A DNA stretch of 49,131 nucleotides from Gammaproteobacteria bacterium (lineage in GTDB: Bacteria; Pseudomonadota; Gammaproteobacteria; Xanthomonadales; Wenzhouxiangellaceae): the NCBI GenBank assembly GCA_009908385.1, contig JAAAPE010000147.1, positions 1 to 49,131 on the forward strand. The letters are read 5' to 3'. Shown in pieces: positions 3,409 through 43,323 of this stretch (its first letter is position 1; each line of letters starts with the position of its first letter). Below the pieces are notes generated by a model that saw nothing but the letters and a program-made list of their open reading frames with translations, searched no databases and had not been told where the DNA came from. Position numbers and translations under genes: made by a program.

Positions 3409-4128
3409 CTAGGGTCCCCGTCCGATCCAGACCTCGAAGGGCCAGTCGCTGCCCGACTGCATGGCCGTCAGCGCTTCGGATTCCCGCGCTTCGATCGTAT
3501 CGAGAAAGCGCTTGGCCCCCTGCATGCGCGCGAACGAATCCAGCCCGTGTTCCAGAAAGCGCTGCAGCCGCTCCACGCCGCCCATCTCGGCCGGTGTCCG
3601 CATCATCCGCACCAGCCGGCGCACGAACGGGCGGCGAACCGTTTCGTCCAGCAGCTCGCCCAGGGAACGGATCAGCGCGATCTGGTCGCGCCTTTCCGTC
3701 CAGCCGCCCTGCTCGCGGTAGGCCCGGGCGTAGGCGGGCTGGTCGATCGCCTCGGCGCCCTGCAGCAAGCGGGCGAGCTCGAAGTCGAACTCGAGGCTCA
3801 CCGCCTGGAGACGCATGGCCTCGCCGGTGGCGTGCAGCAAGTGGTCAGGCAGAAAACGTCGCATGACGGGAACGATCCGCTTGAGCTGGCGATCGCGCGC
3901 ATGGACGTCGCGACCGCCGTAGAGCTCATCGAGAAAGAACTCGCAGGCCGCGCCGTAACGCGGGCTCGCGGCCAGGTCGGCATACGTCGCCTGCAGCCGC
4001 GCGCGCTGCCAGGCCTGCAGGCGATCGAGGGAAGCCCTCAGCGGACCCTCGGCCGGTATTCGTGCGGCGATGGCCAGATTACGCTCGATCTGGCGTTCGA
4101 GGTGGTCGACGGCCGCCGAGGACCCCAT
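3409..4128 (-). CDS. FFLEELY-motif protein of unknown function
   Basis: A 239-residue, Arg/Leu-rich, mostly helical soluble protein with no signal peptide or membrane segment. It contains the signature FFLDELYGGRDV followed by RDRQLKRIVPVMRRFLP, which identifies the FFLEELY-motif family; no biochemical function is known to me. Its ATG (4126-4128) overlaps the TAA stop of the peroxiredoxin gene by one base (TAATG), so the two form an operon with likely translational coupling. It ends 18 nt from the convergent FHA gene; the gap holds a short GC-rich imperfect palindrome (about 3396-3420). Confidence 0.8.
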   Translation of the reverse strand: MGSSAAVDHLERQIERNLAIAARIPAEGPLRASLDRLQAWQRARLQATYADLAASPRYGAACEFFLDELYGGRDVHARDRQLKRIVPVMRRFLPDHLLHATGEAMRLQAVSLEFDFELARLLQGAEAIDQPAYARAYREQGGWTERRDQIALIRSLGELLDETVRRPFVRRLVRMMRTPAEMGGVERLQRFLEHGLDSFARMQGAKRFLDTIEARESEALTAMQSGSDWPFEVWIGRGP

Positions 4129-4574
4129 TACAGCCGCCGGATGACTTCGACCAGCTCCTCCCGGCTGCGGCGGAAAACCGCCACCGACTCGACGTGCGCG
4201 TATCGCACGATGCGGCCTTCGTCGACCAGGAAAACGCCGCGCTTCATGCCGATGAGGCCCTTGCAGCCGTACCGATCCGCTACCGCCAGGTCCGGATCGC
4301 TGAGCAGCGTGAACGGCAGCTCGTGCCTGTCTCGAAAGCGCCGATGGCTGTCGGCATCGTCACGGCTGATGCCGACCACTCGAACGTCGAGGTCCGAGAA
4401 CTGCTCGATACCATCCCGGTAGTCGCACAGCTGGCGCGTACACACGGGCGTATCGTCTCCCGGATAGAAGACCAGGAGTACACGAGTGGAGGTCTGCTCG
4501 GAAAGCCGGAACGGATTCCCGTTCTGGTCGGGCAATGAAAAGTCGGGTGCGGTCTTGCCGATTCGAATCGTCAT
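4128..4574 (-). CDS. bcp: BCP/PrxQ-type thiol peroxiredoxin
   Basis: A 148-residue peroxiredoxin that reduces hydroperoxides with thioredoxin as reductant in the cytoplasm. The active-site segment FYPGDDTPVCTRQLCDYRD places the peroxidatic Cys at 45 and a second Cys at 50, the C-X4-C spacing of atypical two-Cys BCP/PrxQ enzymes. The fold start KTAPDFSLPDQNGN is typical. The frame is open upstream to 4748, but that extension is antisense to the lipase gene and has no homology. The ATG at 4574 is chosen because the domain begins there and a TATAAT ends seven bases before it. No Shine-Dalgarno is visible, so the mRNA is probably leaderless. Operon with the FFLEELY gene. Confidence 0.9.
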   Translation of the reverse strand: MTIRIGKTAPDFSLPDQNGNPFRLSEQTSTRVLLVFYPGDDTPVCTRQLCDYRDGIEQFSDLDVRVVGISRDDADSHRRFRDRHELPFTLLSDPDLAVADRYGCKGLIGMKRGVFLVDEGRIVRYAHVESVAVFRRSREELVEVIRRL

Positions 4575-4581
4575 GCGGTGC

Positions 4582-4589
4582 ATTATAAT
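4582..4589. promoter_or_regulatory. Palindromic -10 element (ATTATAAT) for divergent leaderless genes
   Basis: ATTATAAT is its own reverse complement, so it presents a perfect TATAAT on both strands (4584-4589 on plus, 4587-4582 on minus). Six bases separate the plus copy from the lipase ATG at 4596; seven separate the minus copy from the peroxiredoxin ATG at 4574. Both distances put the start of transcription at the A of the start codon. No -35 match is convincing on either strand. The promoter assignment is an inference from spacing and sequence. Confidence 0.65.
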
Positions 4590-4595
4590 GTCCGC

Positions 4596-5819
4596 ATGCT
4601 CAAGCTGACCCCTGCACTCTCTCCACGCGAAACCAGCCGCCACCCGACCATCGCCCTGGCGATCGCCGGCGGCGGCCCGCTCGGCGCCATCTACGAACTG
4701 GGCGCCCTCCAGGCTCTCGATGAGGCGCTCGACGGCGTCCACATGCACGATCTGGACGTTTACGTCGGGGTCAGCTCGGGTGCCGTGCTATCGGCCAACC
4801 TGGCCAACAGGATCACGATCAGCCAGATGGCGCGCGTTTTCATGAGCACGAAGGAGGCCGAATTCGCCTTCCATCCGGAGAAATTCCTGCGCCCGGCGAT
4901 CCGCGAGTATTTCAACCGGGCGGCCAGCGTTCCCTCGGTCATCTTCGACATGCTCGCCGAAATCATCCGGCATCCCCAGCGGCTGACGAGCCTCGAGAGC
5001 ATCGAAAGCCTGAGCCGGCTGGTTCCCAACGGCATTTTCGACAACCGGAGCATCCACCGCTTCCTGGCGGAGGTGCTCGACAAGCCCGGGCGCAGCAATG
5101 ACTTCCGCAAGCTGACGGCCAAGCTGCGCGTCGTGGCGGTGGAACTCGAATCGGGCCAGGCCATTCGCTTCGGCGAACCCGGTTACGACGATGTCCCGAT
5201 ATCCCTGGCCGTGCAGGCTTCCGCCGCCCTGCCCGGCCTGTACCCGCCCGTGGAAATCGGCGGACGGTACTACGTCGACGGCGCACTGCGCCGAACGCTG
5301 CATGCCTCGGCCGCCCTCGAGGAAGGCGCCGACCTGCTGTTCGCCATCAACCCGCTGGTTCCCTATGACGCGGACAGCGACGAGACCAACCTGGCCCGCG
5401 CCCGCGAACGCATGATCAAGGGCGGTCTGCCGGTCGTGCTCTCGCAGACGTTCCGATCGCTGATCCAGTCGCGCATGCAGGTCGGCATGCGCAAGTACGA
5501 AACCAGCTACCCGGAATCGGCCATCATGCTCGTCGAGCCCAATCGCAACGACGAAAAGATGTTCTACACCAACGTCTTCAGCTATTCCTCGCGCAACGAG
5601 CTCGTCGAACACGCCTTCCAGGTCACCCGGGCCGAACTGCTGGCACGGGCCGACGACCTGGATACCTTCCTCGAGCCCTTCGGGCTGTCGATCAACCGGG
5701 AAATCCTCGCGGCCCGGCGCAGCTTCTCCGACAGCCTCAAGCGCGAGGCGCCCCATTACGCCCCGGTCGGAAATTCCCTCGATCGAACGCTCGACAGCCT
5801 GGAGCGCCTGCTGCGCTGA
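4596..5819 (+). CDS. Patatin-like phospholipase / lipid acyl hydrolase
   Basis: A 407-residue protein with the full patatin catalytic set: oxyanion loop GGGPLG (residues 25-30), nucleophile elbow GVSSG with Ser60, and the dyad Asp in YYVDGALRR. It should hydrolyse acyl esters of phospholipids or neutral lipids. I see no signal peptide, so it is probably cytosolic or membrane-associated. A GTG at 4578 would add six residues, but the TATAAT at 4584-4589 implies that transcription starts at ATG 4596. It lies beside a storage-lipid locus, so a role in lipid turnover is possible but unproven. Confidence 0.88.
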   Translation: MLKLTPALSPRETSRHPTIALAIAGGGPLGAIYELGALQALDEALDGVHMHDLDVYVGVSSGAVLSANLANRITISQMARVFMSTKEAEFAFHPEKFLRPAIREYFNRAASVPSVIFDMLAEIIRHPQRLTSLESIESLSRLVPNGIFDNRSIHRFLAEVLDKPGRSNDFRKLTAKLRVVAVELESGQAIRFGEPGYDDVPISLAVQASAALPGLYPPVEIGGRYYVDGALRRTLHASAALEEGADLLFAINPLVPYDADSDETNLARARERMIKGGLPVVLSQTFRSLIQSRMQVGMRKYETSYPESAIMLVEPNRNDEKMFYTNVFSYSSRNELVEHAFQVTRAELLARADDLDTFLEPFGLSINREILAARRSFSDSLKREAPHYAPVGNSLDRTLDSLERLLR

Positions 5820-5842
5820 AGGCCGCCATCGAGGGTGCCGCC

Positions 5843-5919
5843 CCGTTCCGACGCCGGATCATTCACTTCGGTTCGACGCGGTGGCGAGGCCCTCAGCGAA
5901 TGATCCGGCGTCGGAACGG
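5843..5919. repeat. 22-bp perfect inverted repeat with 33-nt loop
   Basis: The arm at 5843-5864 (starting CCGTTCCGACGCCGG) is matched exactly by its reverse complement at 5898-5919. The hairpin begins just 23 nt after the lipase stop. No T-run follows on either strand, so it is not a textbook intrinsic terminator. It could be a 3'-end stabilising hairpin, a rho-assisted terminator, or a mobile palindromic element. Confidence 0.7.
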
Positions 5920-5957
5920 ACCGCTCTCCAGATCCCTGTTCGAGAAGAAGCCCTAAG

Positions 5958-5988
5958 GGCAGGGGCGAAAAGACGCGGCCCCGGCACC
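5958..5988 (+). repeat. 31-bp direct repeat, copy 1
   Basis: This 31-bp segment (starting GGCAGGGGCG, ending CGGCACC) matches 6137-6167 at 30 of 31 positions. Each copy can fold a small GGGGC/GCCCC hairpin. It lies in the 347-bp gap between the lipase and the acyl-CoA reductase, which holds no gene I can support. Confidence 0.7.
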
Positions 5989-6072
5989 GAAGAGGCCGGC
6001 CTGCAGCCCGCCGCGCCCTGATCAGCCATCAACCTCGAAGGCCGATGGATTTTCGTTCCTGCCGGTGATGAG

Positions 6073-6127
6073 CCGGCGCTTGAAAGCGGAGCGTACTTGG
6101 GGGGTACGTGAGCATTTCAAGCGCCGG
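6073..6127. repeat. Hairpin repeat with 13-bp perfect arms
   Basis: CCGGCGCTTGAAA at 6073-6085 is the exact reverse complement of 6115-6127. Inside lies a second stem, CGTAC/GTACG, around a G-rich loop. It sits about 40 nt past the stop of the acyl-CoA reductase gene (minus strand). The compact nested-hairpin form is REP-like; genome copy number is unknown to me. It may terminate or stabilise the reductase mRNA. Confidence 0.65.
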
Positions 6128-6136
6128 GGAAGCGCC

Positions 6137-6167
6137 GGCAGGGGCGGAAAGACGCGGCCCCGGCACC
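6137..6167 (+). repeat. 31-bp direct repeat, copy 2
   Basis: Second copy of the 5958-5988 element, with a single A/G difference. Its last base is the final base of the reductase stop codon (TAG on the minus strand, 6169-6167), so the repeat abuts the gene end. The two copies flank the 6073-6127 hairpin. Confidence 0.7.
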
Positions 6168-8155
6168 TACCAGTGGATTCCGCGCATCAGCGACGCAAAC
6201 GCCACCTGCTCCTGCGTCGGTTCCACGCGGCCTTCATCCTTCTTGCCCTGCGCGGCAGCCGAATCCGGAAACATGCGGAACGCGGAGTTCATGACAATTT
6301 CGGACACCTTCGGCGCCGTTGCGTGCAGGATCTGGGCAAATATCCCCAGACGGGTGGCGATCCGCTGCGGCTTGTAGATCACCGCCTGCTTGATCATGTC
6401 GGCGGCGTCCTCCGGCGTAATGGTCGGCACGTGCTCATAGATCTTCGTCGGCGCGATCATCGGGGTGCGAACGAGCGGCATGTTGATGGTGGTGAAGGAA
6501 ACGCCGGTGTCCGCGAACTCGGAGGCCGCGCAGCGTGAGAACGCGTCCAGCGCGGACTTCGAGGCCACGTAGGCCGAGAACCGGGGCGCGTTCGACAGCA
6601 CCCCGATCGAAGAGATGTTCACGACCTGCCCGCCGCCCTTTTCGACCATCACGGGCAGGAATCCCATGATGAGCTTCAGCGAGCCGAAGTAGTTGAGCTG
6701 CATCAGCCGCTCGTAGTCATGGAATCGATCGTAGGAGAGCTGGATCGAACGCCTGATCGACCGCCCGGCGTTGTTGACCAGGATATCGACCGCTCCGTGA
6801 TCCTCGAGCACCTGCTTGACCAGCGCTTCGGCCTGCTTCATCTCCGACAGATCGCAGGTGTAGTAGTGCGCCTGCCCGCCGTCGGCCTCGATCTCGGCCT
6901 TGGTTTCCTTGAGACCTTCCTCGCCGCGCGCGACGATGATGACCCGCGCGCCGGCCTGGCCCATCATCGTCGCCGTCGCTCTGCCGATACCGGAGGAGGC
7001 CCCGGTGATCAGCACGACCTTGTCGCGCACCTGTCCGGACAGGGAACGATCGATGAACAGCTCGGGGTCGAGATGGCGTTCCCAGTAATCCCAGATCACC
7101 CAGGCATAATCCTCCAGCGCGGGCACGCTGATGCCCGAGCCCCTGAGCGCCTTCTCCGCGTCCCGATTGTCGAATCGCGTCGGGTAACTGAAGAAACCGA
7201 GCATGTCCCTGGGAATCCCGAGATCTTCGAGCACCTGGTTGATGATGCGCCTGACGGGAGGCAGCATCGTCAGACCCTGCTTGACCGGCGCGGGGATGAA
7301 GCCGAACAGGCGCGCATCGATGCGCATCGACATCAGGGGGGCGTGCGCAGCCTGCGCGAAGAGATTCATGACCTCCCCGATCCGCTTCGGATGGGGGTCG
7401 GTGAGGTGGAAACACTGGCCATCCAGCTTCGGCTTGTGCGCGATGTGGTCCATGGCGCGGGCCACGTAGTCGACCGGAACGATGTTGATTCGACTGCCCT
7501 CCAGGCCCAGGGTGGGCACCCAGGGCGGCAGCATGCGGCGCATCTTCTGGATCAGCTTGAAGAAGTAGTAAGGCCCGTCGATCTTGTCGATTTCGCCCGT
7601 CTTCGAATGCCCGACGACGATCCCCGGGCGGTAGATGCGCCACGGAATCGAGCAGGCGCGCCTGACCAGGCCCTCGGATTCGTGCTTGCTGCGGAAATAG
7701 GGGTGCTGGAGACCGGTCGCCTCCTCGAACATGTCCTCGCGAAAGGTACCCTGGTATAGCCCGGCCGCCGCGATGGAGGAAGTATGGTGAAAGCACTTGG
7801 CATTGATGCTTTCGGCCAGCTGTATGGCGTGGCGAGTCCCCCCGATGTTGGCAGCCTCGTTCGTTTCCGCGTCGGCGGCCAGGTCGTAGATCGCGGCCAG
7901 GTGGAAGAAATGCCGGACTTTGCCCTGGAGCTTTCCCGTATCGGCCTTGCTCACGCCCAGCGCCGGTTTCTTCAGGTCGCCCATGACCGCCACCAGCCGC
8001 CGCTTGTGATCCGACCAGCGCTCGGCGACGAGGTCGTTGAACTTCGTCTTGGAGCCGCGGCGGACGAGCACGTAGATCGTCCCTTTGCGCTGGACCAGCT
8101 GGTCGATCAGGTTACGTCCAATGAATCCGGTTCCCCCCGTGACGAAATAGGTCAT
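6167..8155 (-). CDS. Alcohol-forming fatty acyl-CoA reductase (two-domain SDR)
   Basis: A 662-residue protein of two dehydrogenase domains. The N-terminal extended-SDR/Male-sterile-type domain has GGTGFIG at residues 7-13 and NIVPVDYVARAMDHIAH. The C-terminal classical SDR has the TGASSGIGRATA NAD(P) loop, NNAGRSIRRS, and catalytic Tyr/Lys in FSAYVASKSALDAFSR. Length, domain order and the terminal EQVAFASLMRGIHW closely match, from memory, the Marinobacter enzyme (Maqu_2220 type) that reduces fatty acyl-CoA to the aldehyde and then the primary alcohol with NADPH. It would supply alcohol for the wax ester synthase at 10977-12446. A GGGAGG Shine-Dalgarno lies 8-9 nt before ATG 8155. The gene diverges from the acyl-CoA-binding protein. 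Confident. Confidence 0.92.
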   Translation of the reverse strand: MTYFVTGGTGFIGRNLIDQLVQRKGTIYVLVRRGSKTKFNDLVAERWSDHKRRLVAVMGDLKKPALGVSKADTGKLQGKVRHFFHLAAIYDLAADAETNEAANIGGTRHAIQLAESINAKCFHHTSSIAAAGLYQGTFREDMFEEATGLQHPYFRSKHESEGLVRRACSIPWRIYRPGIVVGHSKTGEIDKIDGPYYFFKLIQKMRRMLPPWVPTLGLEGSRINIVPVDYVARAMDHIAHKPKLDGQCFHLTDPHPKRIGEVMNLFAQAAHAPLMSMRIDARLFGFIPAPVKQGLTMLPPVRRIINQVLEDLGIPRDMLGFFSYPTRFDNRDAEKALRGSGISVPALEDYAWVIWDYWERHLDPELFIDRSLSGQVRDKVVLITGASSGIGRATATMMGQAGARVIIVARGEEGLKETKAEIEADGGQAHYYTCDLSEMKQAEALVKQVLEDHGAVDILVNNAGRSIRRSIQLSYDRFHDYERLMQLNYFGSLKLIMGFLPVMVEKGGGQVVNISSIGVLSNAPRFSAYVASKSALDAFSRCAASEFADTGVSFTTINMPLVRTPMIAPTKIYEHVPTITPEDAADMIKQAVIYKPQRIATRLGIFAQILHATAPKVSEIVMNSAFRMFPDSAAAQGKKDEGRVEPTQEQVAFASLMRGIHW

Positions 8156-8252
8156 TGCTCAGCCTCCCTCGGGCGTTGTTGGTCGAATTCCCCCAAAGAT
8201 ACCGATTCCACGGCGATTACGCCACCACGGCCTTCGCCGCTCGCCGGAATCG

Positions 8253-8281
8253 TTGACCCGTCCCCTGCTGCATGCTAGAAA
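8253..8281 (+). promoter_or_regulatory. Candidate sigma-70 promoter for the ACBP-TetR operon
   Basis: TTGACC (8253-8258), a 17-nt spacer and TAGAAA (8276-8281) predict transcription from about 8288. That gives a leader of about 37 nt, which carries AAGGGA ahead of ATG 8325. The reductase gene diverges at 8155, leaving a shared 169-nt control region where the TetR protein encoded downstream could bind. I found no clear operator palindrome. Confidence 0.5.
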
Positions 8282-8324
8282 GTACACTCGGAAATTCCAA
8301 CAAGCCAAGGGAACCCTCTCGACG

Positions 8325-8582
8325 ATGAGCGATCTGGATGCGCGCTTCAGGCAGGCCGCCGATGACGTCCAGGACCTGGACGAACGCCCGGACAACGACA
8401 CGCTGCTCAAGCTCTACGCGCTCTACAAACAGGGGTCGGAAGGCGATGTCTCCGGCGAGAAACCGGGGTTCTTCGACTTCGTCGGCGTGGCCAAGTACGA
8501 GGCCTGGGAAAAGCTCAATGGCATGTCGTCCGAGGAGGCCAAGAAGAAATACGTCGACATGGTCGAGTCCCTGCGAAGCTGA
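8325..8582 (+). CDS. Acyl-CoA-binding protein (ACBP)
   Basis: An 85-residue soluble protein matching the ACBP fold and length (about 86 residues). YALYKQGSEGD contains the acyl-CoA-contacting Tyr/Lys motif, and KYEAWEKLNGMSSEEAKKKY the second conserved helix. ACBPs hold long-chain acyl-CoA esters in the cytosol and pass them to acyltransferases and reductases. The frame opens earlier at 8253, but that stretch contains the promoter; ATG 8325 starts the domain with AAGGGA upstream. TetR follows 15 nt later. Its place between a fatty acyl-CoA reductase and a wax ester synthase suggests acyl-CoA delivery to storage-lipid synthesis. Confidence 0.93.
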   Translation: MSDLDARFRQAADDVQDLDERPDNDTLLKLYALYKQGSEGDVSGEKPGFFDFVGVAKYEAWEKLNGMSSEEAKKKYVDMVESLRS

Positions 8583-8597
8583 GTCCCGACTGCCGGC

Positions 8598-9230
8598 ATG
8601 AGCCGGAACACCCGCGAACGGATCCTGGGCGCCGCCCTGCAGCTTTTCAACGAGCAGGGAGAACCGCACGTCACGACCAACCGGATCGCCGACGAGCTGG
8701 ACATCAGCCCCGGCAACCTGCACTACCACTTCCGGACCAAGGGCGATCTCATCCAGGCGCTGTTCGGTTCATTCGAGCAGCAGATGCTCGAATTGCTTGC
8801 AACGCCGGAATCCCGCGAAGTCCACATCGAGGACATCTGGTTCTTCCTGCACCTGGTTTTCGAGACTATCGGTGAGTATCGCTTTATCTACCGCGACCTG
8901 ACCGACCTATGCGGCCGCTTTCGCACTATCCATCGGCGCTTCCAGGGCATTATTCGGCTGTCGATGCAGACCGCCCGATATCTCAGCGACGGGCTGGCCG
9001 ATCAGGGTCAGCTCGAAGCCGAACCCGAAGAGCTCGAGGCCCTGGTACGCAATATCATGCTGGTATCGACCTTCTGGTTCGCATTCGACCAGGTCGTCGA
9101 ACGCGACACGAACCCGCGCCCCGACCGGGCCGTGTGGCAGGTCATGGGCCTGATAAGTCCTTACCTGGTCGGCAGCGCACGCGAAGAGCTTTCGGAGCTG
9201 GCCCGGGCATACCGAACGGACTCAGGCTGA
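8598..9230 (+). CDS. TetR/AcrR family transcriptional regulator
   Basis: A 210-residue protein with an N-terminal TetR DNA-binding domain. RERILGAALQLFNEQGEPHV leads into the helix-turn-helix TTNRIADELDISPGNLHYHF, ending with the hallmark NLHYHFRTKGDLI. The C-terminal helical ligand domain (about 60-205) is Trp/Phe-rich (DIWFFLHLVFETIG), consistent with a hydrophobic ligand. It is the second gene of the ACBP operon, so I infer an acyl-CoA or fatty-acid-responsive repressor of this locus. The start ATG 8598 lacks a clear Shine-Dalgarno; translation may be coupled to the ACBP gene. Confidence 0.9.
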   Translation: MSRNTRERILGAALQLFNEQGEPHVTTNRIADELDISPGNLHYHFRTKGDLIQALFGSFEQQMLELLATPESREVHIEDIWFFLHLVFETIGEYRFIYRDLTDLCGRFRTIHRRFQGIIRLSMQTARYLSDGLADQGQLEAEPEELEALVRNIMLVSTFWFAFDQVVERDTNPRPDRAVWQVMGLISPYLVGSAREELSELARAYRTDSG

Positions 9231-9274
9231 GCGAACAATTCGGGCAAGCCGCGGATTGCTTGCGCGGAAAACCC

Positions 9275-9302
9275 AAAAAAAGACCCGGACGATGTCCGGG
9301 TC
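9275..9302 (-). terminator. Intrinsic terminator of the phasin gene
   Basis: GACCCGGAC (9282-9290), a GAT loop and GTCCGGGTC (9294-9302) form a perfect 9-bp stem. On the minus strand it is followed by seven T (plus-strand A at 9275-9281). It lies about 80 nt past the phasin stop. On the plus strand no T-run follows, so it serves the minus strand. Confidence 0.85.
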
Positions 9303-9381
9303 AAGCGTCGCAGCGTGTACCGGGCCGAGGGAGGAAGCCCGGGCTGCTTCGGGGTAGTCTGGAGGAGTCGACTACAAACCG

Positions 9382-9981
9382 TCAGGACTTGGTGCTGGCA
9401 GCACTCTTGCTCGGCGAGCTGGCAGCCGGGGCCGCAGCGCCCTTCTTCTGCTGCTCGGACAGCGCACGAACCTGCTTGTTGAGTTCGGCCACCCGATTGC
9501 TCAGCTGCTTGATCTCGTCGGAGGTCGGAACGCCGAGTCGCGAAAGCGCCCGGGCCACGCGCTGCTCGAACACTTTCTCGAGCTTGTCCCAGTTGCTCTG
9601 GGCGGTTTCACGAACCTTGCCCACGCGGCTCTCGACGTCATCGCGAACCCCGCTGACCGTCTCGTTGGCAGCCTTCCGGCCCTTGTTTTCGAGCTTGCCG
9701 CCTTCCTTGACGAGGCGCTCGAAGAGCTTGTTGCTCTCGCCGATGACCTTGCTGCTGGTCGACTCGACCGACTTGCGGCTCTGTTCGTACAGCTTGCCGC
9801 CTTCCTGCTGCGCCATGGAAAAGGCGCCCAGGCCGGCCAGCCAGATCTCGTGAGCGTAGTCCTGGACCTGCGAAGTCGCGGTCTTGCGCGCCGAGGTCTT
9901 GCGAGCCGCCGTCTTGCGGGTTGCGGTCTTCTTGGCCACCTTCTTCTTGGCGACCTTCTTCTTGGCAGTCTTCTTGGCCAT
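9382..9981 (-). CDS. Phasin family granule protein with N-terminal Lys/Ala-rich arm
   Basis: A 199-residue protein. Residues 1-36 are a repetitive Lys/Arg/Ala/Thr arm (AKKTAKKKVAKKKVAKKTA), resembling the histone-like tail of PhaF/AlgP. Residues about 40-125 are an amphipathic helical phasin domain (YAHEIWLAGLGAFSMAQQEG, the phasin signature). Near 150-175 comes LGVPTSDEIKQLSNRVAELN, the coiled-coil oligomerisation motif of polyhydroxyalkanoate granule-associated proteins. The tail is Ala/Ser-rich. It should coat storage inclusions and, through the basic arm, bind DNA. AAGGAG lies 10 nt before ATG 9981; a 7-bp hairpin (10002-10020) lies in the leader. No PHA synthase is in the window, whereas wax ester genes flank it. 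Confidence 0.9.
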   Translation of the reverse strand: MAKKTAKKKVAKKKVAKKTATRKTAARKTSARKTATSQVQDYAHEIWLAGLGAFSMAQQEGGKLYEQSRKSVESTSSKVIGESNKLFERLVKEGGKLENKGRKAANETVSGVRDDVESRVGKVRETAQSNWDKLEKVFEQRVARALSRLGVPTSDEIKQLSNRVAELNKQVRALSEQQKKGAAAPAASSPSKSAASTKS

Positions 9982-10079
9982 GATTTCTCAGCTCCTTGAT
10001 GTCCCGCCGGGATGGCGGGATGTATACGTTGAATTTGAGAGTTAAGATAAGGCGGGTTTCTAGAGTGGGCACACTAATC

Positions 10080-10856
10080 ATGGACACCGCTAACTGGGCC
10101 GGTTTTCCCCATGCCAACAAGGCTTTCCAGTATCCCGGAGACAAGCTGAAGCAGTCCTGGGAAGCGCTTCATCGCGGCGACGTGGAGCCGCTGCCCCCCG
10201 ACGAGGCGGTGCTCGAGGCCTGGCGTCGCTACCATGCGGGTGACTTCGCCGGTGCCGTCGAACAGGCCGAGGCGGCCGGTCCGGAGGCTCATGCCGCGGC
10301 CAACAAGGCCAGCGGCATCTACGCCGACTACCTGGAAGAAGACGAAGCCACCAAGGTTGCCATTTACCAGGCCGGCATCCGGCGCGCCGAGCGCGCCATC
10401 GAGGCCAACGAGGAAGACGCCAACGCCCACTATTTCCACGCCTTCCTGCTGGGACGCTACAGCCAGAGCATCTCGATCGCCAAGGCGCTGTCCCAGGGCA
10501 TCGGCGGCAAGGTGCGCGATTCGCTCGAGCGCGCGCTGGCACTGGCGCCCGATCACGCCGAAGCGCACACGGCGTTCGGGCTCTACCAGGCCGAGATCAT
10601 CAACAAGGTCGGCAAGATGGTGGGCAAGCTGACCTACGGCGCAAGCGCGGACAAGGCGATGGAACATTTCGAACGCGCCCTCGAACTGACGCCCGACGCT
10701 CCCATCGCCCATATCGAATACGGCAACGGCCTCTACCTGCTCTACGGCGAAAAACGTCTCGATGACTCCAACGCCGCCTACGAGAAAGCCGCGTCGCTCA
10801 AACCGATCGACGCGATGCAGAAACTGGACGTGGAGTTCGCGAAAGCGTCCGTCTAG
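10080..10856 (+). CDS. TPR-repeat protein in the storage-lipid locus
   Basis: A 258-residue soluble helical protein. Tetratricopeptide-like units are visible at EAWRRYHAGDFAGAVEQAEA, around ANAHYFHAFLLGRYSQ, at SLERALALAPDHAEAHTAFG, at HFERALELTPDAPIAHIEYG and at AAYEKAASLKP. There is no signal peptide or catalytic motif. The frame opens at 9996, but ATG 10080 starts the folded part (MDTANWAGFP) and leaves a divergent control region shared with the phasin gene. TPR proteins are scaffolds; given its neighbours I infer a partner of granule or wax ester enzymes, without direct evidence. It converges on the wax ester synthase gene across a heptad repeat array. Confidence 0.75.
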   Translation: MDTANWAGFPHANKAFQYPGDKLKQSWEALHRGDVEPLPPDEAVLEAWRRYHAGDFAGAVEQAEAAGPEAHAAANKASGIYADYLEEDEATKVAIYQAGIRRAERAIEANEEDANAHYFHAFLLGRYSQSISIAKALSQGIGGKVRDSLERALALAPDHAEAHTAFGLYQAEIINKVGKMVGKLTYGASADKAMEHFERALELTPDAPIAHIEYGNGLYLLYGEKRLDDSNAAYEKAASLKPIDAMQKLDVEFAKASV

Positions 10857-10860
10857 GGCG

Positions 10861-10976
10861 TGGTCAGTGGTCCGTGGCCTGACTACTGACTACTGACTAC
10901 TGACTACTGACTACTGACTACTGACTACTGACTACTGACTACCGACTACCGACCACTGACTACCGACCACCGACCA
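10861..10976. repeat. CTGACTA heptanucleotide tandem array with inverted heptads
   Basis: Nine perfect CTGACTA units (10879-10941) are followed by five variants (CCGACTA, CCGACCA, CTGACTA, CCGACCA, CCGACCA), 14 units in all. Every change is a C/T transition at unit positions 2 or 6. The array ends exactly at the stop codon of the wax ester synthase gene (10977-10979). Two inverted heptads (TGGTCAG, TGGTCCG) at 10861-10874 can pair with the array to form a long imperfect hairpin between convergent genes. Confidence 0.9.
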
Positions 10977-12446
10977 CTACTCTTCCTCGATCCACTGGTG
11001 CACCAGCTCGGCGTCCTCCGGGGAGAGCGTCTCCACCTCCGGACCGAGCAACATGGTCAGGTGGAGCAGGTTCTCGAACTCGCGCCGAAAGTTGACGACG
11101 ACGTTGCGCGGATCCGGCACCAACCGGTTGTCGGTGATCAGCCCCGAAAAGACCTGTCCGTCGTAGCTGATGATGCTGATACCCATGCCTACCGAGCCGG
11201 TCTGGGGCACCCAGAACATCATCTCCCGGATCCTGGCTCCGGCCAGGTAGAGCGGTGACTGCGGGCCTGGAACGTTGGTCAGGACGGTCGAGGCCTTGCG
11301 GCTGAAGAGTTCGAGGGCCGGCTTCTGAAGCGAGGCGGGCCCCATCCCGAGCGCGGCCAGCAGGCCGAGCGACATCATGGCCTGGCGCGAATCCTTCAAC
11401 TCCCGCATGAACTCCGCCACGCGATAAACCCTCGCGAGCGGATTCTCCTCGGCCACCGGCAGTTCCAGAAAGACCAGCCCGAAATGATTGCCGAGCTCAC
11501 GCGCGTGTTCGAGAGGGCGCAGGTTGACCGGCACCGTCGCCCGCATCGTGATTTCGGAGGGGTCGTCCCCGCACTCGACCAGGTAGCGGTGAAGGGCACC
11601 GGTCATGACCGCGATCAGAACGTCGTTGACGGTGCAGCCAAGCGCCTTCCCTACGGCCTTGACTTCTTCGAGATCGATCGGGTCGGCCCAGGCGACGTTT
11701 TTCCGAACGCCCAGCCTGCCCTTGAAGCGTGACGGCGGATCGTCGGGCAGGAGCAGCGCGTTTGCGAGCTCCGCCATCAGGTCGGCCGCGACTCCGGCGT
11801 AATCGGCGGCGACATGCGGCTCACGAATCATCTGCGCCGCCTCCTCGAGCATCTTGTAGCTGAAATGCCCGACCACGTCGATGCCCTCGCGCGCAGGCGC
11901 CATCAGCCGCCGAAAGATGTTGGACTCGGCCGCGCGCTTCTTCTTCCAGTGATGAGGGCTGATCTGTTGAAGCGACTTTTCCGGATCCGACTCGGTCAGC
12001 GAAAGCAGGACCTGCACCAGGGCGATGCCGTCGGCATAACAGTGGTGAACTCGGCTGATGACCACGGGGCCGTCGGCGTAGTTTTCGACCAGGTGGAATT
12101 GCCAAAGCGGCTTGGTCTTGTCCAGCGGCGTGGACACCAGCTGCGAGACGAGCTCTTCGAGCTCGGCCTTGCCGGCGTTGCCGGGCAGAGCGGTCCGCAC
12201 GATATGGGCGCTGGGCTCGAACAGGTCGTCGCTTTCCCACCAGCAACCGCGCGCGGTCTCCACGGCCTTCTGCCTGAAACGCCGGAACGAGAGGAACCGG
12301 TTCGTCACCACCTGCGCGAAAGCCTCGAAATCGATCGCGTGGTCGAGCACGATCACCCCGGTGATCATCATCAGGTTCGTCGGCTGCTCCATGCGCAACC
12401 AGGCAACATCGACTTTCGAAATCGGCTCGCGCGTCGCGCTGTTCAC
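10977..12446 (-). CDS. Wax ester synthase / diacylglycerol O-acyltransferase (WS/DGAT)
   Basis: A 489-residue acyltransferase that joins acyl-CoA to a fatty alcohol (wax ester) or diacylglycerol (triacylglycerol). The catalytic HHxxxDG motif is HHCYADG at residues 134-140. The family PLW motif (113-115), the ND motif in GCTVNDVLIAV (274-275) and NVPGPQSPLYLAG near the C-terminus are all present. The length is close to the family norm of about 460. The start is GTG 12446 with GGGAAGG just upstream; KVDVAWLRMEQPTN aligns with the usual N-terminus, so an internal Met is less likely. Together with the acyl-CoA reductase it completes a wax ester pathway. The stop codon abuts the heptad repeat. Confidence 0.93.
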   Translation of the reverse strand: MNSATREPISKVDVAWLRMEQPTNLMMITGVIVLDHAIDFEAFAQVVTNRFLSFRRFRQKAVETARGCWWESDDLFEPSAHIVRTALPGNAGKAELEELVSQLVSTPLDKTKPLWQFHLVENYADGPVVISRVHHCYADGIALVQVLLSLTESDPEKSLQQISPHHWKKKRAAESNIFRRLMAPAREGIDVVGHFSYKMLEEAAQMIREPHVAADYAGVAADLMAELANALLLPDDPPSRFKGRLGVRKNVAWADPIDLEEVKAVGKALGCTVNDVLIAVMTGALHRYLVECGDDPSEITMRATVPVNLRPLEHARELGNHFGLVFLELPVAEENPLARVYRVAEFMRELKDSRQAMMSLGLLAALGMGPASLQKPALELFSRKASTVLTNVPGPQSPLYLAGARIREMMFWVPQTGSVGMGISIISYDGQVFSGLITDNRLVPDPRNVVVNFRREFENLLHLTMLLGPEVETLSPEDAELVHQWIEEE

Positions 12447-12565: not shown

Positions 12566-13015
12566 CTAATGAACCTGTCTCTGCGTTCCCTGCTCGGGCG
12601 CACCGGCGAGATCATAGGGTAGTTTGACCTGGTCGAGACCGAACTGTTTGAACACCGGCTGGAGCTGATGATGAATCAGGGGATAAAGCTGTCGCGTCAG
12701 GCTGCCGTGGTTCGCCTTGAAGCGTTCGAAGTCGACCGGGTCACCCTGAAACTGGCGGTAGACCGCCTGCAACACGAGCTCGATGGTGAACAGGGGATTG
12801 TCCGGAGTGTCGGTGTCGCGATGGCCCCGGCAGACGAGATGCGCGCTCACCTGGTACTGGGGCAATTCGCCGTCGTGGCTGTATTCCCGGGGCGTCAACT
12901 TGAGCTCCACCTTGGCGCTAAAGCGCTGGCTGGCGGGCACCACTTCGGTGAGGTCGGCATGAAGCCGGGTGACCTGCGTATGCGTCAGGGCGAACTGGTC
13001 GAGGAGATTAATCAT
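12566..13015 (-). CDS. SecB-like chaperone-fold protein (putative)
   Basis: A 149-residue soluble protein without signal peptide. The pattern is that of SecB-like proteins: alternating beta strands (FSAKVELKLTPREYS, YQVSAHLVCRG, FTIELVLQAVYRQF), then a helix and a closing LYPLIHHQLQPVFKQFGLDQ.KLPYDL. Similarity is at the level of fold pattern, not clear identity, so the call is tentative. A TTG at 13048 could extend the frame; ATG 13015 (MINLLDQFALTHTQ) fits the fold start better. It lies 116 nt downstream of the exported acylase gene on the same strand; a hairpin at 13085-13105 separates them. Confidence 0.5.
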   Translation of the reverse strand: MINLLDQFALTHTQVTRLHADLTEVVPASQRFSAKVELKLTPREYSHDGELPQYQVSAHLVCRGHRDTDTPDNPLFTIELVLQAVYRQFQGDPVDFERFKANHGSLTRQLYPLIHHQLQPVFKQFGLDQVKLPYDLAGAPEQGTQRQVH

Positions 13016-13084
13016 CGGGCTGCCTGTAGGATTCCAGACTCTCCACAATGGCCGCCCGGGCGGTCGTATTCAACCCGAAAGGAA

Positions 13085-13131: not shown

Positions 13132-15984
13132 TCAGGGCGCGAAAGTGGTCACGTCGATCGCAGAACCCTGCGCCTCGCTCTCCCCGAACACGAGCGACAG
13201 GTAGTCGTTCACCAGCCAGCGCTGAAGCTGGTTGGTGTAGAAGGGACTCACCAGCACGCCGCTCCGGCCGCCCGGCAGCACTTCGCTGACGTTGGGCGTA
13301 CCCGGCGTCATCTCGGCGACAGTCCGGCGAGCCGGGCCGGAGCCGAACATGAAGTCGTTGAGACCGTCCGCGCGCACGCTGTGCGATGAGGCATCGACCG
13401 TCTGGTAGCCGCCGGCGCGGGCCACGCCCGGCAGGTTCGGCCCGAGATCGCTCAGACCGCCTCCGTTGGGCACGTTGAACGGATCGCTGCCGAGCGGATG
13501 CCTGAACACGATGCGGTGCAGCTTGCCCCAGCGGTAATCGTCCTGGTCGGTCGAATTGCCGAAGGCCGGCGCGAACTCGTCGCTGGCCAGCAGCTCCAGG
13601 GTCTGCGCCAGGCTGGCCAGCAGCACCGTGTCGCGGGCCGCAGCCAGGTCGGGCGCGCCTTCGACGTTGAAGAACGGAATGCCCGAGGCGCCGACGCCGC
13701 CGCTCTCGTCGAAGCTGGCCAGCTGATTGTGGAACGCGCGCAGCGCGTCGCTGGAGCCGGGCAGCGCGTCGCCGAGCTGAAGGCCTTCGAGCGTGGCATC
13801 AATGGTGTTGCCGATGACCTGCCCGCGCCACACCGAGTAGATCGTGGCTGCGACGCTGTTGGCCACCGCTTCGGCGGAAGGCGCTCCAGCCCCGGCCGGA
13901 CTGCCGGGATCATAGCCATCGGCCAGGCCGGTGGGCGTGGAAAAGTCCCAGTCCGACAGCCGGCCGACCGCTTCCTGCACGGCCGGGTTCGCCGCGAACT
14001 GGGCCAGGCCCGGCCAGGCCCCCTCCTCGGTCGCATTGACGAATGCATCGAGGATGTAGGGCACGATCAGCTCGGCGTCGAAGAGCTGGTTGTCGGCCTG
14101 CAGCGCCTTCATGTCCGCGACGCTGATGGGGCTGCCGGAGGCAATCATGTCCTGCAGTTCCCGGTCGATGCGCGCCATGCGAAGCTCGGAATAGGACGGA
14201 TTGAGATAGTAAATGCCGTTGCCGCCCGGGCGCAGCTGGTTGAGCGGGTTGTTGTCCAGCGTCGTGCCGACCGGGTCGTTGTTGGCGTTGGCGATGTAGC
14301 CCCAGGGCGGGTTGACCACGCTCGGCATCTCCGACTTGGGCAGGGAGGCGAAGGGCGCGGCGCGCGTCGAGTCCTCGTTGGCCGGCAGCCAGTCATGGCC
14401 GAGGGCACCGGAACCGTCGCGAAGCAGGAAGGGCGGAACGCCGCCTCCGACTTCGTTGTTCTGCAGGTCCTCGCGCAGGGGAACGGCGCCGGTCGTGAAA
14501 TACGCGATATTGCCGTCGACATCGGCGTAGACGACGTTCTGCGAACCGAAGGTCCAGTTGTCGATCACCGACCGGAACTCTTCCATGTTGCTGGCGCGCT
14601 CGAAGCCGCGGATCGAGGACAGCTCGAAGGTCGCCCCCCAGCCGGCGTATTGCACGGAAATCGCCGAGCTCGAATCGGGCTGGGCCACGATCGGGCCGTT
14701 GTTGCGCCGGGGCACCAGGAAGGTGATCCCGCCGGAGTCGTAGCCGACGTTGGCGCGACTGATGTTGTCCGGCTGGCCGTCACCGATGCTGTTGACGAAA
14801 TAGCTCTGGAAGGCGTAGAGAACCGGATCATCGCCGTCGGCGTGGACCGTGTGCGTGGGCAGCCCGTAGCTGTTGGTCCTGATTTCTTCCTGGAAGTAGT
14901 CCGTGACGTCGATGTTGTGGTTGGTCAGCCCCCAGCAGATGTCGACGTTGCAGCCCAGCAGGGTCAGGGGCGTGCCCGGGGGCGTGACCCCGCTGACGAT
15001 GCGGTTCTCGTCGCGGATGACGATGTTTTCGTTGATCATCAGCGCCGGCATGTCCAGCCCCAGGTGGGGGTCGTTGGCCATGATCGGGTAACCGCTTTCG
15101 GTGTGGTCCCCGGAGACGACCCACCAGTTGGAGCCGGCCCGGTTGTCGGCCCGGCCGATGGTCGTGCCGAGCAGCGGAATCTCCCGCACACGCTGCATGT
15201 AGTTCTGCAGGCTGCCGACCACGGCGTCGTCGATCTGCGGCAGGTTCTGCCAGGCTGAGCCACCCTGCCCCTTGCCGCCGGCCCCTTCGCTTTCGGTCTG
15301 GCTGCCGCCGGGCACGGGAATGATGCCCGTCGTTTCGAAGAAGTTCGGAATGCTGATCCGGTCATCCATCGGCTGGGCCCGCGAGATGTCCTCGGAAAAC
15401 AGCGTCGCGCCGTCGAACCCGACGACTTCGCCCACGCCCTGGTAGGTGGCAAGCCGTATGGTGCGGTCGACGACCCCGGAATCGAAGCTGAGCTGGAAGG
15501 CCAGAAGCTTGCCGATGATCAGCGAATCGACCGGTGACCAGCGCTCGACTTGCGTGAGCTCGAGCACGCCGTATTCCGGCGGCAGCTGCGGCGTCGTGGC
15601 GATGAAGGCGTTGACGCCGTCCGCGTAGGCCTTGACCCAGGCCTTCTCGTCGGCGGTCATGTGCTGCCAGGTCTCGAGCGCACCGCGCCGCAGACCGAGC
15701 GTCCGCAATTCGATATCGCTGCTCAGCGCGCCCTGGCCGAGCAGCTCGGCGAGCGTGCCCGACGCAACGCGTCTGAGGTAGTCCATCTGGAAGAGCCGGT
15801 CGCGCGCGTGAAGGTAGCCGCGCACGTAGTTGACGTCGCCTTCGGTCTCGCCGACGATCGTCGGAATGCCATTGGCGTCGGTGTAGACGTTCACCGGAGC
15901 GTTCAGCGCCGGCATCGACACCGACTGCGCATGCAAACCGGCAGCCAATGCCAGGCCGCCGACCAGTGTGATCAGCTTTTTCAT
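13132..15984 (-). CDS. Penicillin acylase family (Ntn) amidohydrolase, exported
   Basis: A 950-residue precursor. MKKLITLVGGLALAAGLHAQ is a signal peptide for periplasmic export. Residues about 25-280 would be the alpha chain and a linker containing a Gly/Glu/Ser-rich stretch. Autocleavage is expected before Ser285 in RAGSNWWVVSG, the Ntn nucleophile signature, leaving a beta chain of about 665 residues that includes MANDPHLGLDMPALM. Members hydrolyse amides such as penicillins, acyl-homoserine lactones or N-acyl amino acids; the substrate here cannot be told from sequence. The frame opens at 16071, but ATG 15984 begins the signal peptide with AGGGG upstream. The length is slightly above the family norm of 750-850. 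Confidence 0.9.
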   Translation of the reverse strand: MKKLITLVGGLALAAGLHAQSVSMPALNAPVNVYTDANGIPTIVGETEGDVNYVRGYLHARDRLFQMDYLRRVASGTLAELLGQGALSSDIELRTLGLRRGALETWQHMTADEKAWVKAYADGVNAFIATTPQLPPEYGVLELTQVERWSPVDSLIIGKLLAFQLSFDSGVVDRTIRLATYQGVGEVVGFDGATLFSEDISRAQPMDDRISIPNFFETTGIIPVPGGSQTESEGAGGKGQGGSAWQNLPQIDDAVVGSLQNYMQRVREIPLLGTTIGRADNRAGSNWWVVSGDHTESGYPIMANDPHLGLDMPALMINENIVIRDENRIVSGVTPPGTPLTLLGCNVDICWGLTNHNIDVTDYFQEEIRTNSYGLPTHTVHADGDDPVLYAFQSYFVNSIGDGQPDNISRANVGYDSGGITFLVPRRNNGPIVAQPDSSSAISVQYAGWGATFELSSIRGFERASNMEEFRSVIDNWTFGSQNVVYADVDGNIAYFTTGAVPLREDLQNNEVGGGVPPFLLRDGSGALGHDWLPANEDSTRAAPFASLPKSEMPSVVNPPWGYIANANNDPVGTTLDNNPLNQLRPGGNGIYYLNPSYSELRMARIDRELQDMIASGSPISVADMKALQADNQLFDAELIVPYILDAFVNATEEGAWPGLAQFAANPAVQEAVGRLSDWDFSTPTGLADGYDPGSPAGAGAPSAEAVANSVAATIYSVWRGQVIGNTIDATLEGLQLGDALPGSSDALRAFHNQLASFDESGGVGASGIPFFNVEGAPDLAAARDTVLLASLAQTLELLASDEFAPAFGNSTDQDDYRWGKLHRIVFRHPLGSDPFNVPNGGGLSDLGPNLPGVARAGGYQTVDASSHSVRADGLNDFMFGSGPARRTVAEMTPGTPNVSEVLPGGRSGVLVSPFYTNQLQRWLVNDYLSLVFGESEAQGSAIDVTTFAP

Positions 15985-16145
15985 CCTCGAGTACCCCTGA
16001 TTGTTTTGGTATGCGGGCTCGATTATGGCACAAACGGCCTGACACGCTCCAAACGCCCCATTTGCGGGCATTTCACGGTCCGATGCCGCTCAAAACGCTC
16101 AGCGGCACTCATCCGGCGCATTTCCTCACGCGCGCCCCGAGCGCT

Positions 16146-16151
16146 TATAAT
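16146..16151 (+). promoter_or_regulatory. -10 box of the pdh operon
   Basis: A perfect TATAAT at 16146-16151 lies 66 nt before the pdhA start and predicts transcription from about 16158. The region 17 nt upstream (16123-16128) is a poor -35 match, so an activator or an extended element may be needed. An AGAGAGGAG Shine-Dalgarno is at 16204-16212. Confidence 0.6.
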
Positions 16152-16217
16152 ACGGCCCCGCTTCGGAGCGGCCGTCCGGCCTCCGAATTCCGGAATATCA
16201 CAAAGAGAGGAGTCGAC

Positions 16218-17318
16218 ATGGCGCACACTGCCGCCGCCTTCAAGGTGGACTATTTCCAGTTCCTCAAGCCAGACGGCAAGCTGGTCGAGGACCAGCAGGT
16301 GCCGGCCCTGGCGAGGGATTTCGATCGCCTGACCGAACTGTACAAGCTGATGGTGCTCACGCGCACTTTCGACAAGAAAGCGGTGGCGCTCCAGCGCACT
16401 GGCAAGCTCGGCACCTATGCTTCCAGTCTGGGCCACGAAGCGGCGCACGTGGCGATCGGCGCGGCGATGAAGGAAGAGGACTGCTTCGCCCCGATGTACC
16501 GCGAGTACGGCGCACAGTTCTACCGCGGTGTGAAGATGTCGGAAGTCCTGCTTTACTGGGGCGGCGACGAGCGCGGCAGCGATTTCAGCGGCCCAAAGCA
16601 CGATTTCGCCTGGTGCGTTCCGATCGCCACGCAGTGCCTCCACGCCGCCGGCGCGGCCCTGGCCTACAAGCTCAAGAAGGAAGACCGCGTGGCCGTCACC
16701 GTGGTCGGCGACGGCGGTTCGTCGAAGGGCGACTTCCTCGAGGCGATCAACGCCGGCAGCGCCTGGAAGCTGCCGCTCGTGCTGGTCATCGTCAACAACC
16801 AGTGGGCCATCTCGGTGCCGCGCAAGAAGCAGAACACCGCCGCCACGCTGGCCCAGAAGGGCATCGCCGGCGGGTTGCCCAGCATCCAGGTCGACGGCAA
16901 CGACCTGATTGCCTGCCTGTGGGCGATGGACAAGGCGGTGAGCGCCGCCCGACAGGGCAAGGGCTCTTTCGTCATCGAGATGATCACCTACCGGCTCAGC
17001 GACCACACCACGGCCGACGATGCGCGCCGCTACCGCCCCGGCGATGAAGTCGACGAAGCCTGGGACCGCGAGCCGCTCAAGCGCCTCAAGGCCTACCTGG
17101 TGGACCAGGGCGCCTGGGACGAGCAGCAGGACGAGGAACTGCTGGGCGAGTGCAAGAAGTGGGTCCAGCAGGCCGCCGACGAGTACCTCGAGATGATCGA
17201 GAACGACCCGCAGCCGGTGACCGCCATGTTCGACTACATGTTCGCCGAGCTCCCCCAGGACCTGATCGAGCAGCGCACCTACGCGCAGGAATACGCCGAG
17301 GACGGAGGGCACCACTGA
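16218..17318 (+). CDS. pdhA: Pyruvate dehydrogenase E1 component, alpha subunit
   Basis: A 366-residue E1-alpha of the heterotetrameric 2-oxoacid dehydrogenase type; it binds thiamine diphosphate and decarboxylates pyruvate. The TPP motif begins VVGDGGSSKGDFLEAIN and closes with VIVNNQWAISVPR. MYREYGAQFYRG and TYRLSDHTTADDARRYR are further family signatures, the latter around the phosphorylation-loop equivalent. The start ATG 16218 follows AGAGAGGAG by 5 nt. Its stop overlaps the pdhB start (TGATG). A branched-chain E1-alpha is an alternative; the MFDYMFAELPQ tail and the operon order favour pyruvate dehydrogenase. Confidence 0.88.
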   Translation: MAHTAAAFKVDYFQFLKPDGKLVEDQQVPALARDFDRLTELYKLMVLTRTFDKKAVALQRTGKLGTYASSLGHEAAHVAIGAAMKEEDCFAPMYREYGAQFYRGVKMSEVLLYWGGDERGSDFSGPKHDFAWCVPIATQCLHAAGAALAYKLKKEDRVAVTVVGDGGSSKGDFLEAINAGSAWKLPLVLVIVNNQWAISVPRKKQNTAATLAQKGIAGGLPSIQVDGNDLIACLWAMDKAVSAARQGKGSFVIEMITYRLSDHTTADDARRYRPGDEVDEAWDREPLKRLKAYLVDQGAWDEQQDEELLGECKKWVQQAADEYLEMIENDPQPVTAMFDYMFAELPQDLIEQRTYAQEYAEDGGHH

Positions 17319-42442: not shown

Positions 42443-43323
42443 GACGACTCCTTGCTGAACAACTGATCCAGTTTCTGCTCGAACTCGTGATAGCCGAGCA
42501 CTTCGTAAAGCTCCTCGCGGGTCTGCATGGCATCGACCACGTTCTTCTGGTGGCCGTCGCGGCCGATCGCCTCGTAGACGCCCAGTGCGGCCTTGCTCAT
42601 GGCGCGGAAGGCCGACAGCGGATACAGCACGAGTCCGGCGCCGGCATCACGCAGCTCATCGACGGAAAACAGCGGCGTCTTGCCGAACTCCGTGATGTTG
42701 GCGAGCACGGGCACGTCGACCTGGCGGGCAAACTCGGCGAACTCCTCGAGCGTGTGCAGGGCCTCGGCGAAGATCATGTCGGCGCCGCAGTCGACGTACA
42801 GGCTGGCGCGGTCCACGGCGGCGGCCATACCCTCGCCGGCGTAGGCGTCGGTGCGGGCCATGAACACGAAGGAATCGTCCCGGCGCGCATCGACCCCGGC
42901 GCGAACGCGGTCGGCCATTTCTTCCGCACTCACCAGCGCCTTGTTCGGTCGGTGCCCGCAGCGCTTGGCGGCCACCTGGTCCTCGAGGTGAATGGCGGCA
43001 ACGCCCGCCCCTTCCATCTCACGCACCGTTCGCGCGATGTTGAAAGCGCTGCCCCAGCCGGTGTCGACGTCGACGAGCAGCGGCAAATCGCTCACCGCCG
43101 TGATCCGGCGCGCGTCCTCGACCACGTCGGCCAGCTGCGTGATCCCGAGATCCGGCAATCCGTAGGAGGCGTTGGCCACGCCCGCTCCGGACAGGTAGAT
43201 CGCCTGATGGCCGGCCTTTTCGGCCAGCAGCGCGCTATAGGCGTTGATCGTGCCGACGACCTGCAGCGGCGGGTTGTCGGCGACGAGCTTTCTGAAGCGT
43301 GCGCCGGGCGTTCGATCGCTCAT
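42439..43323 (-). CDS. prpB: 2-methylisocitrate lyase
   Basis: A 294-residue member of the isocitrate lyase/PEP mutase family, splitting methylisocitrate into pyruvate and succinate. [20 protein letters not shown] carries the Mg-binding Asp; [17 protein letters not shown] holds the KRCGH catalytic loop. The frame has a TTG six bases earlier (43329), but ATG 43323 is preferred. A TAAAAT on the minus strand (43364-43359) may be its -10. prpC follows with overlap; no prpD, acnD or prpF is in the window, so the dehydratase step is encoded elsewhere. Confidence 0.93.

Follow-up and report, generated by a model that had tools for sequence, protein, structure and literature searches.

The DNA examined here (the window) is a 49,131-nucleotide stretch of contig JAAAPE010000147.1 (assembly GCA_009908385.1) from a gammaproteobacterium of the Wenzhouxiangellaceae, and it contains a compact locus that probably serves wax ester storage. 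Six intact open genes occupy positions 6167–12446 and encode a two-domain fatty acyl-CoA reductase (FAR), an acyl-CoA-binding protein (ACBP), a TetR-family regulator, a phasin, a tetratricopeptide repeat (TPR) protein, and a wax ester synthase/diacylglycerol acyltransferase (WS/DGAT), each matching its family model (Table 1). This content agrees with a first-pass annotation that had called a six-gene wax ester locus from the letters alone. FAR and ACBP-TetR diverge over 169 bp, TetR and phasin converge over 151 bp, phasin and TPR diverge over 98 bp, and TPR and WS/DGAT converge over 120 bp. The TetR gene begins 15 bp behind ACBP on the same strand, and the two are presumed to form one operon. 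An open reading frame at 8338–8601 on the plus strand was discarded as a candidate for ACBP, being in the wrong frame with respect to the gene listed. The extent of the module had been set at these six genes; it in fact reaches left beyond 6167 to a patatin-like lipase and an FFLEELY-motif protein, partners that had been missed, and membership of the AhpC/TSA-family protein beside them is uncertain. At the thresholds used, the window's genome (85% complete) has one match each for FAR, WS/DGAT, TPR, and FFLEELY and a single phasin gene, of which two pieces were hit separately.

Table 1. Coordinates of the wax ester locus and its associated features in the window
Feature	Position	Strand	Evidence and remarks
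FFLEELY-motif protein	3409-4128	-	NF047641 211 bits (cut-off 55); recurrent set member
AhpC/TSA-family peroxiredoxin-like protein	4128-4748	-	PF00578 E 7e-36; frequent patatin/FFLEELY neighbour in family loci
Patatin-like lipase	4578-5819	+	PF01734 E 6e-27; GVSSG and DGA motifs
Two-domain FAR	6167-8155	-	NF005539 987 bits (cut-off 549), residues 1-662; adh_short and NAD_binding_4 domains
Divergent promoter region, FAR / ACBP-TetR	8156-8324	.	TTGACC (8253), TAGAAA (8276), AAAGATACC (8195); recurrent in relatives
ACBP, 85 amino acids	8325-8582	+	PF00887 E 7e-30, residues 5-80
TetR-family regulator	8598-9230	+	PF13972 E 2e-37 and PF00440
Phasin, Lys/Ala-rich histone-like N-terminal tail	9382-9981	-	PF05597 E 3e-41, 141 bits; TIGR01837 114 bits
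Phasin promoter -10 box, TATCTT on minus strand	10044-10049	-	Fixed spacing to 16-bp element, 72 non-redundant promoters
Operator-like element TAGAGTGGGCACACTA	10061-10076	+	Over phasin -35; 3 bp ahead of TPR start codon
TPR protein, PTPIP51/BstC-like fold	10080-10856	+	PF21033 RMD1-3 32.8 bits (cut-off 26.7) and TPR_11
WS/DGAT	10977-12446	-	TIGR02946 413.6 bits (cut-off 309.95); HHCYADG at residue 134

The FAR carries the motifs of both short-chain dehydrogenase/reductase domains (TGGTGFIG, GASSGIG, and YVASK) and is 61–63% identical over its full length to the FARs of seven Marinobacter loci; its predicted function is the reduction of acyl-CoA to fatty alcohol. Conservation of the surrounding gene set was examined in 40 loci centered on WS/DGAT, of which the window's family contributed 36, with one more family genome, G012 (a partial match), left out. 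All six genes occur together in 24 of the 36 family loci plus the window, and in 26 of 40 overall, which bears out the conserved neighborhood that had been anticipated; seven incomplete family loci lie near contig ends or are unresolved. Chance does not account for a gene order shared by so many genomes.

A scan of named genomes for FAR, comprising the best 80 loci of a longer list and grouped by labels from record names, widens this picture. Among 52 loci from Xanthomonadales and other (12 of them shorter than 12 kb), the genes found near FAR were ACBP (50), TetR (49), phasin (38), patatin (27), FFLEELY (25), TPR (24), and WS/DGAT (6). Six loci from Betaproteobacteria/Burkholderiales/Rhodocyclales held phasin (6), TetR, TPR, ACBP, and WS/DGAT (5 each), patatin (4), and FFLEELY (3), in an order and orientation different from those of the window; in three named Betaproteobacteria or Rhodocyclales (L159, L184, and L189), the same set is present but shuffled. 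The occurrence of the same genes together in differing order argues for shared function over mere common descent. All 11 Marinobacter FAR loci (flanks of about 10 kb; one locus shorter than 12 kb) were devoid of ACBP, TetR, phasin, TPR, WS/DGAT, patatin, and FFLEELY, in line with the earlier remark that reductase and synthase genes are usually scattered in known producers. None of the partners was found at three Endozoicomonad FAR loci, four Competibacteraceae loci lacked them except for one WS/DGAT and one TetR, and four Marinicella loci had ACBP and TetR only. The gene set is an evolutionary unit.

The same genes come and go together across genomes. In a sample of 81 genomes (the window's own and 80 relatives), 62 are near-complete (completeness of 90% or more, contamination of 5% or less); FAR and WS/DGAT are present in the same 46 of these and missing from the same 16, distant WS/DGAT paralogues being counted. 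TPR accompanies FAR in 43 of the 46 and FFLEELY in 37 (54 of all 81 genomes), and neither was matched in any of the 16 that lack FAR. The three FAR genomes without TPR (G046, G057, and G073) have PhaC and only distant WS/DGAT paralogues. Within the window's genus, G023 is without FAR, WS/DGAT, TPR, FFLEELY, and phasin, as are G049 and G059 of a second genus group (g14), of which G074 has all five; these absences imply losses or gains more than once. Since the genomes are kin, the values of Fisher tests overstate independence, and that of the promoter element described below took only 13 against 7. In a class-wide sample of 274 genomes, the window's own included, FAR was found in 10 (E 1e-150) and TPR in four (E 1e-20), one of the latter (G258) having no FAR match.

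The TPR protein had been cast as an organizer of the inclusion; the gene is indeed there, and its predicted fold resembles a lipid-binding TPR protein rather than a plain organizer. Its AlphaFold model (predicted local distance difference test, pLDDT, 96.4) was compared with the PDB using Foldseek, which ranked the TPR domain of PTPIP51 first by E-value (7cc7, E 2e-6, TM-score 0.62/0.69), followed by the bacterial sterol transporter BstC (7t1s, E 4e-6), with the next entry at 1.5e-4. Sequence identity to both is 18–19%. The protein also passes the cut-off of PF21033 (RMD1-3) and has the matching fold of the RMDN/PTPIP51-like family. According to the available part of PMC9239997, the PTPIP51 TPR domain holds a phospholipid in its cavity and transfers phosphatidic acid in vitro. 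Consensus TPR designs nevertheless score first in a sequence search with the window's protein. A role as a general scaffold or chaperone for the inclusion is a serious contender that we place somewhat below even odds, since TPR domains usually bind proteins and generic TPR proteins match in both sequence and fold (one with a TM-score of 0.75 on the target). Against it stand the best Foldseek E-values, which belong to two lipid-binding TPR proteins, together with the PF21033 match, and these suggest a lipid-binding role. The only plasmid relative of the TPR protein at E 1e-5 was encoded on NC_017507.1, a plasmid of Marinobacter adhaerens HP15 (82783–83199; 35% identity over 54% of the protein).

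The other partner with no assigned function, the FFLEELY protein, gave an all-helical AlphaFold model (pLDDT 91.7) with no PDB match at E ≤ 0.001, and no mention of it was found in the part of the literature covered.

A 16-bp operator-like element, TAGAGTGGGCACACTA, lies between the phasin and TPR genes; nowhere else in the window is the pattern matched exactly. Sequences close to TAGAGYNNNCACACTA occur in 49 of 49 phasin/TPR intergenic regions, at least five of which duplicate loci already present (L114, L117, L124, L135, and L147). A matrix trained on these 49 regions was then run over 104 distinct phasin genes of the cluster loci, among which the 49 also count; at score 15 it placed the element no more than 220 bp upstream of 97 of them, in identical orientation in 96 of the 97; among the seven misses, L142 is without upstream sequence and L067 is a split gene. 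The element also precedes nine TPR genes that have no adjoining phasin. No match above score 20 was obtained in 1.03 Mb of single-base-shuffled sequence from 60 loci. Alignment of 72 non-redundant phasin promoters gave TAGTGTGNNNRCTCTA and, at a constant distance behind it, TANNNT (A in 68 of 72, last T in 70 of 72). The element spans about -39 to -24 and takes in the phasin -35, and because of this promoter position repression is favored over activation as its likely effect. Its half-sites, TAGTGTG and TAGAGY, form an imperfect palindrome that is nearer perfect in L238 (TAGGGTGTTCACACTA).

No copy of the element occurs at the FAR, ACBP-TetR, or WS/DGAT promoters in the window. The proposal that the module as a whole is regulated thus narrows to the phasin and some TPR promoters, where a candidate operator was found. 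A wider regulon was rejected in six family genomes, each of which has exactly one perfect site, at phasin/TPR; their one-mismatch site counts did not exceed those of a reversed-pattern control. Weaker copies (scores 17–18) lie just upstream of the FFLEELY gene in two betaproteobacterial clusters (L159, 829–844; L189, 1226–1241), which suggests a wider regulon there.

The element tracks FAR even where phasin and FAR are apart. Phasin genes exceeding the Pfam cut-off and located on other contigs or far from FAR carried it in 18 of 18 cases in FAR-bearing genomes (scores 16 to 28; 13 genes from 10 genomes and 5 genes from 5 genomes, with the G031 gene on a separate contig of its fragmented assembly), against 0 of 7 cases in FAR-lacking genomes of the same order. 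Ten weak phasin-model matches (20–27 bits, long open reading frames, PhaE-like by judgement), scored apart, had no element; six are from FAR-lacking genomes, two of which reach the cut-off when neighboring pieces are summed, and four are from FAR-bearing ones. The pattern of 18 of 18 against 0 of 7 implies that a FAR-linked trans-acting factor probably reads the site, and the linked TetR protein is the obvious candidate, the ACBP-TetR pair being located near FAR or TPR in 13 of the 15 FAR-bearing genomes of this test. The regulator may be kin of PhaD. A different regulator or a special sigma factor could read the element instead, as might be expected from the lack of copies at the ACBP-TetR and FAR promoters, from the fixed orientation, which is that of a promoter box, and from TetR-bearing clusters without the element (L240, L154, and L159). 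We regard this as rather unlikely, given that the palindrome is of a size that suits TetR proteins and that the trans pattern follows the genomes in which FAR and, mostly, ACBP-TetR occur; the fixed orientation would be explained if one half-site doubles as the -35. The TetR relative of L240 (from G218) is about 34% identical to that of the window, and 12 plasmid records contain relatives at 32–37% identity (coverage of 80% or more). From a different family of the same class, L241 (from G147; 4558–9694) has ACBP, WS/DGAT, phasin, and TetR together beside an AMP-binding enzyme, with the element ahead of phasin and FAR on another contig.

What the inclusion contains bears on the two remaining alternatives. 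WS/DGAT enzymes commonly show both activities, and the set includes a patatin-like lipase, so that the WS/DGAT might act mainly as a diacylglycerol acyltransferase, with triacylglycerol as the stored lipid and the FAR alcohol made for another purpose. This is improbable in view of the joint presence or absence of FAR and some WS/DGAT in 62 of 62 near-complete genomes, and of a WS/DGAT that is a close relative in 40 of the 46 positives, as fits one pathway. The phasin, for its part, belongs to families (PF05597 and TIGR01837) named for polyhydroxyalkanoate (PHA) granules, and the first-pass annotation had allowed that a distant phaC might undo its reading. None was found: the window's genome, 85% complete, gave no match to PhaC_N (PF07167) or TIGR01839, in a search that did not include a model specific to class III PhaC. 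Nor did class II phaC exceed its cut-off in 369 genomes of the class, and the clusters opened held no TetR of the window's TetR family. A PHA-granule block of phasin and TetR lying beside wax ester genes by chance could be suggested by the strong PhaC_N matches in 19 of the 81 genomes, including 16 of the 43 family genomes, and by the TetR regulator and phasins of Pseudomonas phaD and phaIF (PMC9049629, in the portion available). It is very unlikely, since 14 of the 15 near-complete family genomes in which PhaC_N had no match retain the phasin (G023 being the exception) and the phasin genes of seven FAR-lacking genomes are without the element.

Taken together, we favor, at a probability of roughly 0.7, a module dedicated to wax ester inclusions, with the linked TetR acting in trans to control the phasin coat. 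In this module, FAR would reduce acyl-CoA to fatty alcohol, WS/DGAT would join the alcohol to a second acyl-CoA, and ACBP would be the likely acyl-CoA carrier. The phasin is expected to coat the resulting droplet, and its Lys/Ala-rich, histone-like tail probably ties the droplet to DNA. The Wenzhouxiangella group has such tails chiefly at the N terminus and Lysobacter relatives chiefly at the C terminus, and they are comparable to those of the DNA-binding granule and droplet proteins PhaF (PMC9049629) and MLDS (PMC5504291), as far as the available text of both papers describes them. Rhodococcus ruber offers a precedent for phasins on lipid inclusions, the source from which its protein was reportedly isolated (PMC5658603, available in part). 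At the droplet or the membrane, the most likely task of the TPR protein is to bind lipid or pass it on, and the patatin probably mobilizes the store. TetR most likely represses the phasin (and TPR) promoters via the 16-bp element; a build-up of acyl-CoA or a related lipid would release it from the DNA, so that coat protein would be made during storage.

Several observations weigh against this reading. The WS/DGAT could make triacylglycerol, and six of the 46 FAR genomes have distant WS/DGAT paralogues only (G046, G052, G057, G061, G073, and G080). Blocks of the set lie apart in five family genomes, split between TetR and phasin in G025, G027, and G033; in G032 and G036, WS/DGAT is elsewhere and the stretch from FAR to TPR covers a few kb. 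The phasin may serve PHA granules in the 16 of 43 family genomes with strong PhaC_N, and the generic TPR protein 2pl2 fits the TPR model as well as PTPIP51 does by TM-score (0.58/0.75). With regard to control, TetR was not located in G052 and G031, both of which contribute to the 18 trans cases; its absence was tested directly in two of the seven FAR-lacking controls, G043 and G054 (E 1e-20); and the cluster phasins of L154, L159, G186 (L195), and G218 (L240) are without the element. Among the literature matches listed, only PMC10351704 concerns wax esters.

A bolder version, less likely than not, is a proteobacterial lipid-droplet program in which TetR controls phasins in trans via one highly conserved 16-bp operator, histone-like phasin tails fasten the wax ester droplets to the nucleoid, the TPR protein is a PTPIP51-like lipid-transfer factor loading the droplet, and FFLEELY is a further droplet factor.

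Beyond the set, two genes follow WS/DGAT, a 160-residue protein without a family match (12566–13048) and a 979-residue penicillin-amidase family protein with a very weak PvdQ match (13132–16071), the latter found after the locus in many family genomes. Genes for 2-oxoacid dehydrogenase-type E1 alpha, E1 beta, and E2 (16011–19659) likewise adjoin the locus in many of these, and a link to acyl-CoA supply is conceivable. A tRNA-Tyr with anticodon ATA reported by ARAGORN at 43180–43269 is probably spurious, as Rfam gave no tRNA in the window at gathering score.

To our knowledge, most of what is known about bacterial wax ester droplets comes from Marinobacter and Acinetobacter, where the genes are scattered, and the coat, control, and lipid handling of the droplets are poorly understood. 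The locus provides a compact inventory of conserved parts together with a precisely placed candidate regulatory site. From it one would predict that wax esters are stored by Wenzhouxiangella and by those Lysobacter relatives in which a WS/DGAT is also present, that phasins have a role unrelated to PHA, and that two families lacking an assigned function act at the droplet. The paper on Wenzhouxiangella AB-CW3 (PMC7691419), in the text open to a word search, makes no mention of wax, phasin, polyhydroxy, or storage, and among the literature matches listed, which cover the field in part, there was no report of the whole set with TetR, TPR, FFLEELY, or the operator.

Known systems resemble individual parts of the module. 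The pathway of Marinobacter aquaeolei VT8, a Maqu_2507-type FAR with WS/DGAT, uses the same reductase type and the same synthase family as the window, but Marinobacter FAR loci are without clustered partners, unlike the window. Another precedent is that of Galvan et al. 2023 (PMC10351704), in whose main text, as far as available, a Maqu_2507-like reductase and ACBP are reported near ws/dgat on Beta- and Gammaproteobacterial metagenomic scaffolds, with a phasin on one Beta scaffold; TetR, tetratricopeptide, and Wenzhouxiangella do not appear there, and neither the whole set nor its co-occurrence or operator is described. The phaC1ZC2D/phaIF system of Pseudomonas putida (PMC9049629) likewise pairs a TetR-like regulator acting on a phasin promoter with a nucleoid-binding phasin, PhaF; as described in the sections available, it differs in that PhaD activates, whereas the place of the window's element suggests repression, and no PhaC_N was found here. 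In Rhodococcus jostii RHA1 (PMC5504291, available in part), the droplet protein MLDS has a Lys-rich DNA-binding tail and its gene is controlled by a linked regulator, but MLDSR has a predicted XRE-type helix-turn-helix and belongs to another phylum, and the window's regulator is a TetR protein. What the locus adds to the known enzymes and coat protein is their conserved grouping with new partners and a candidate control of the module's own.

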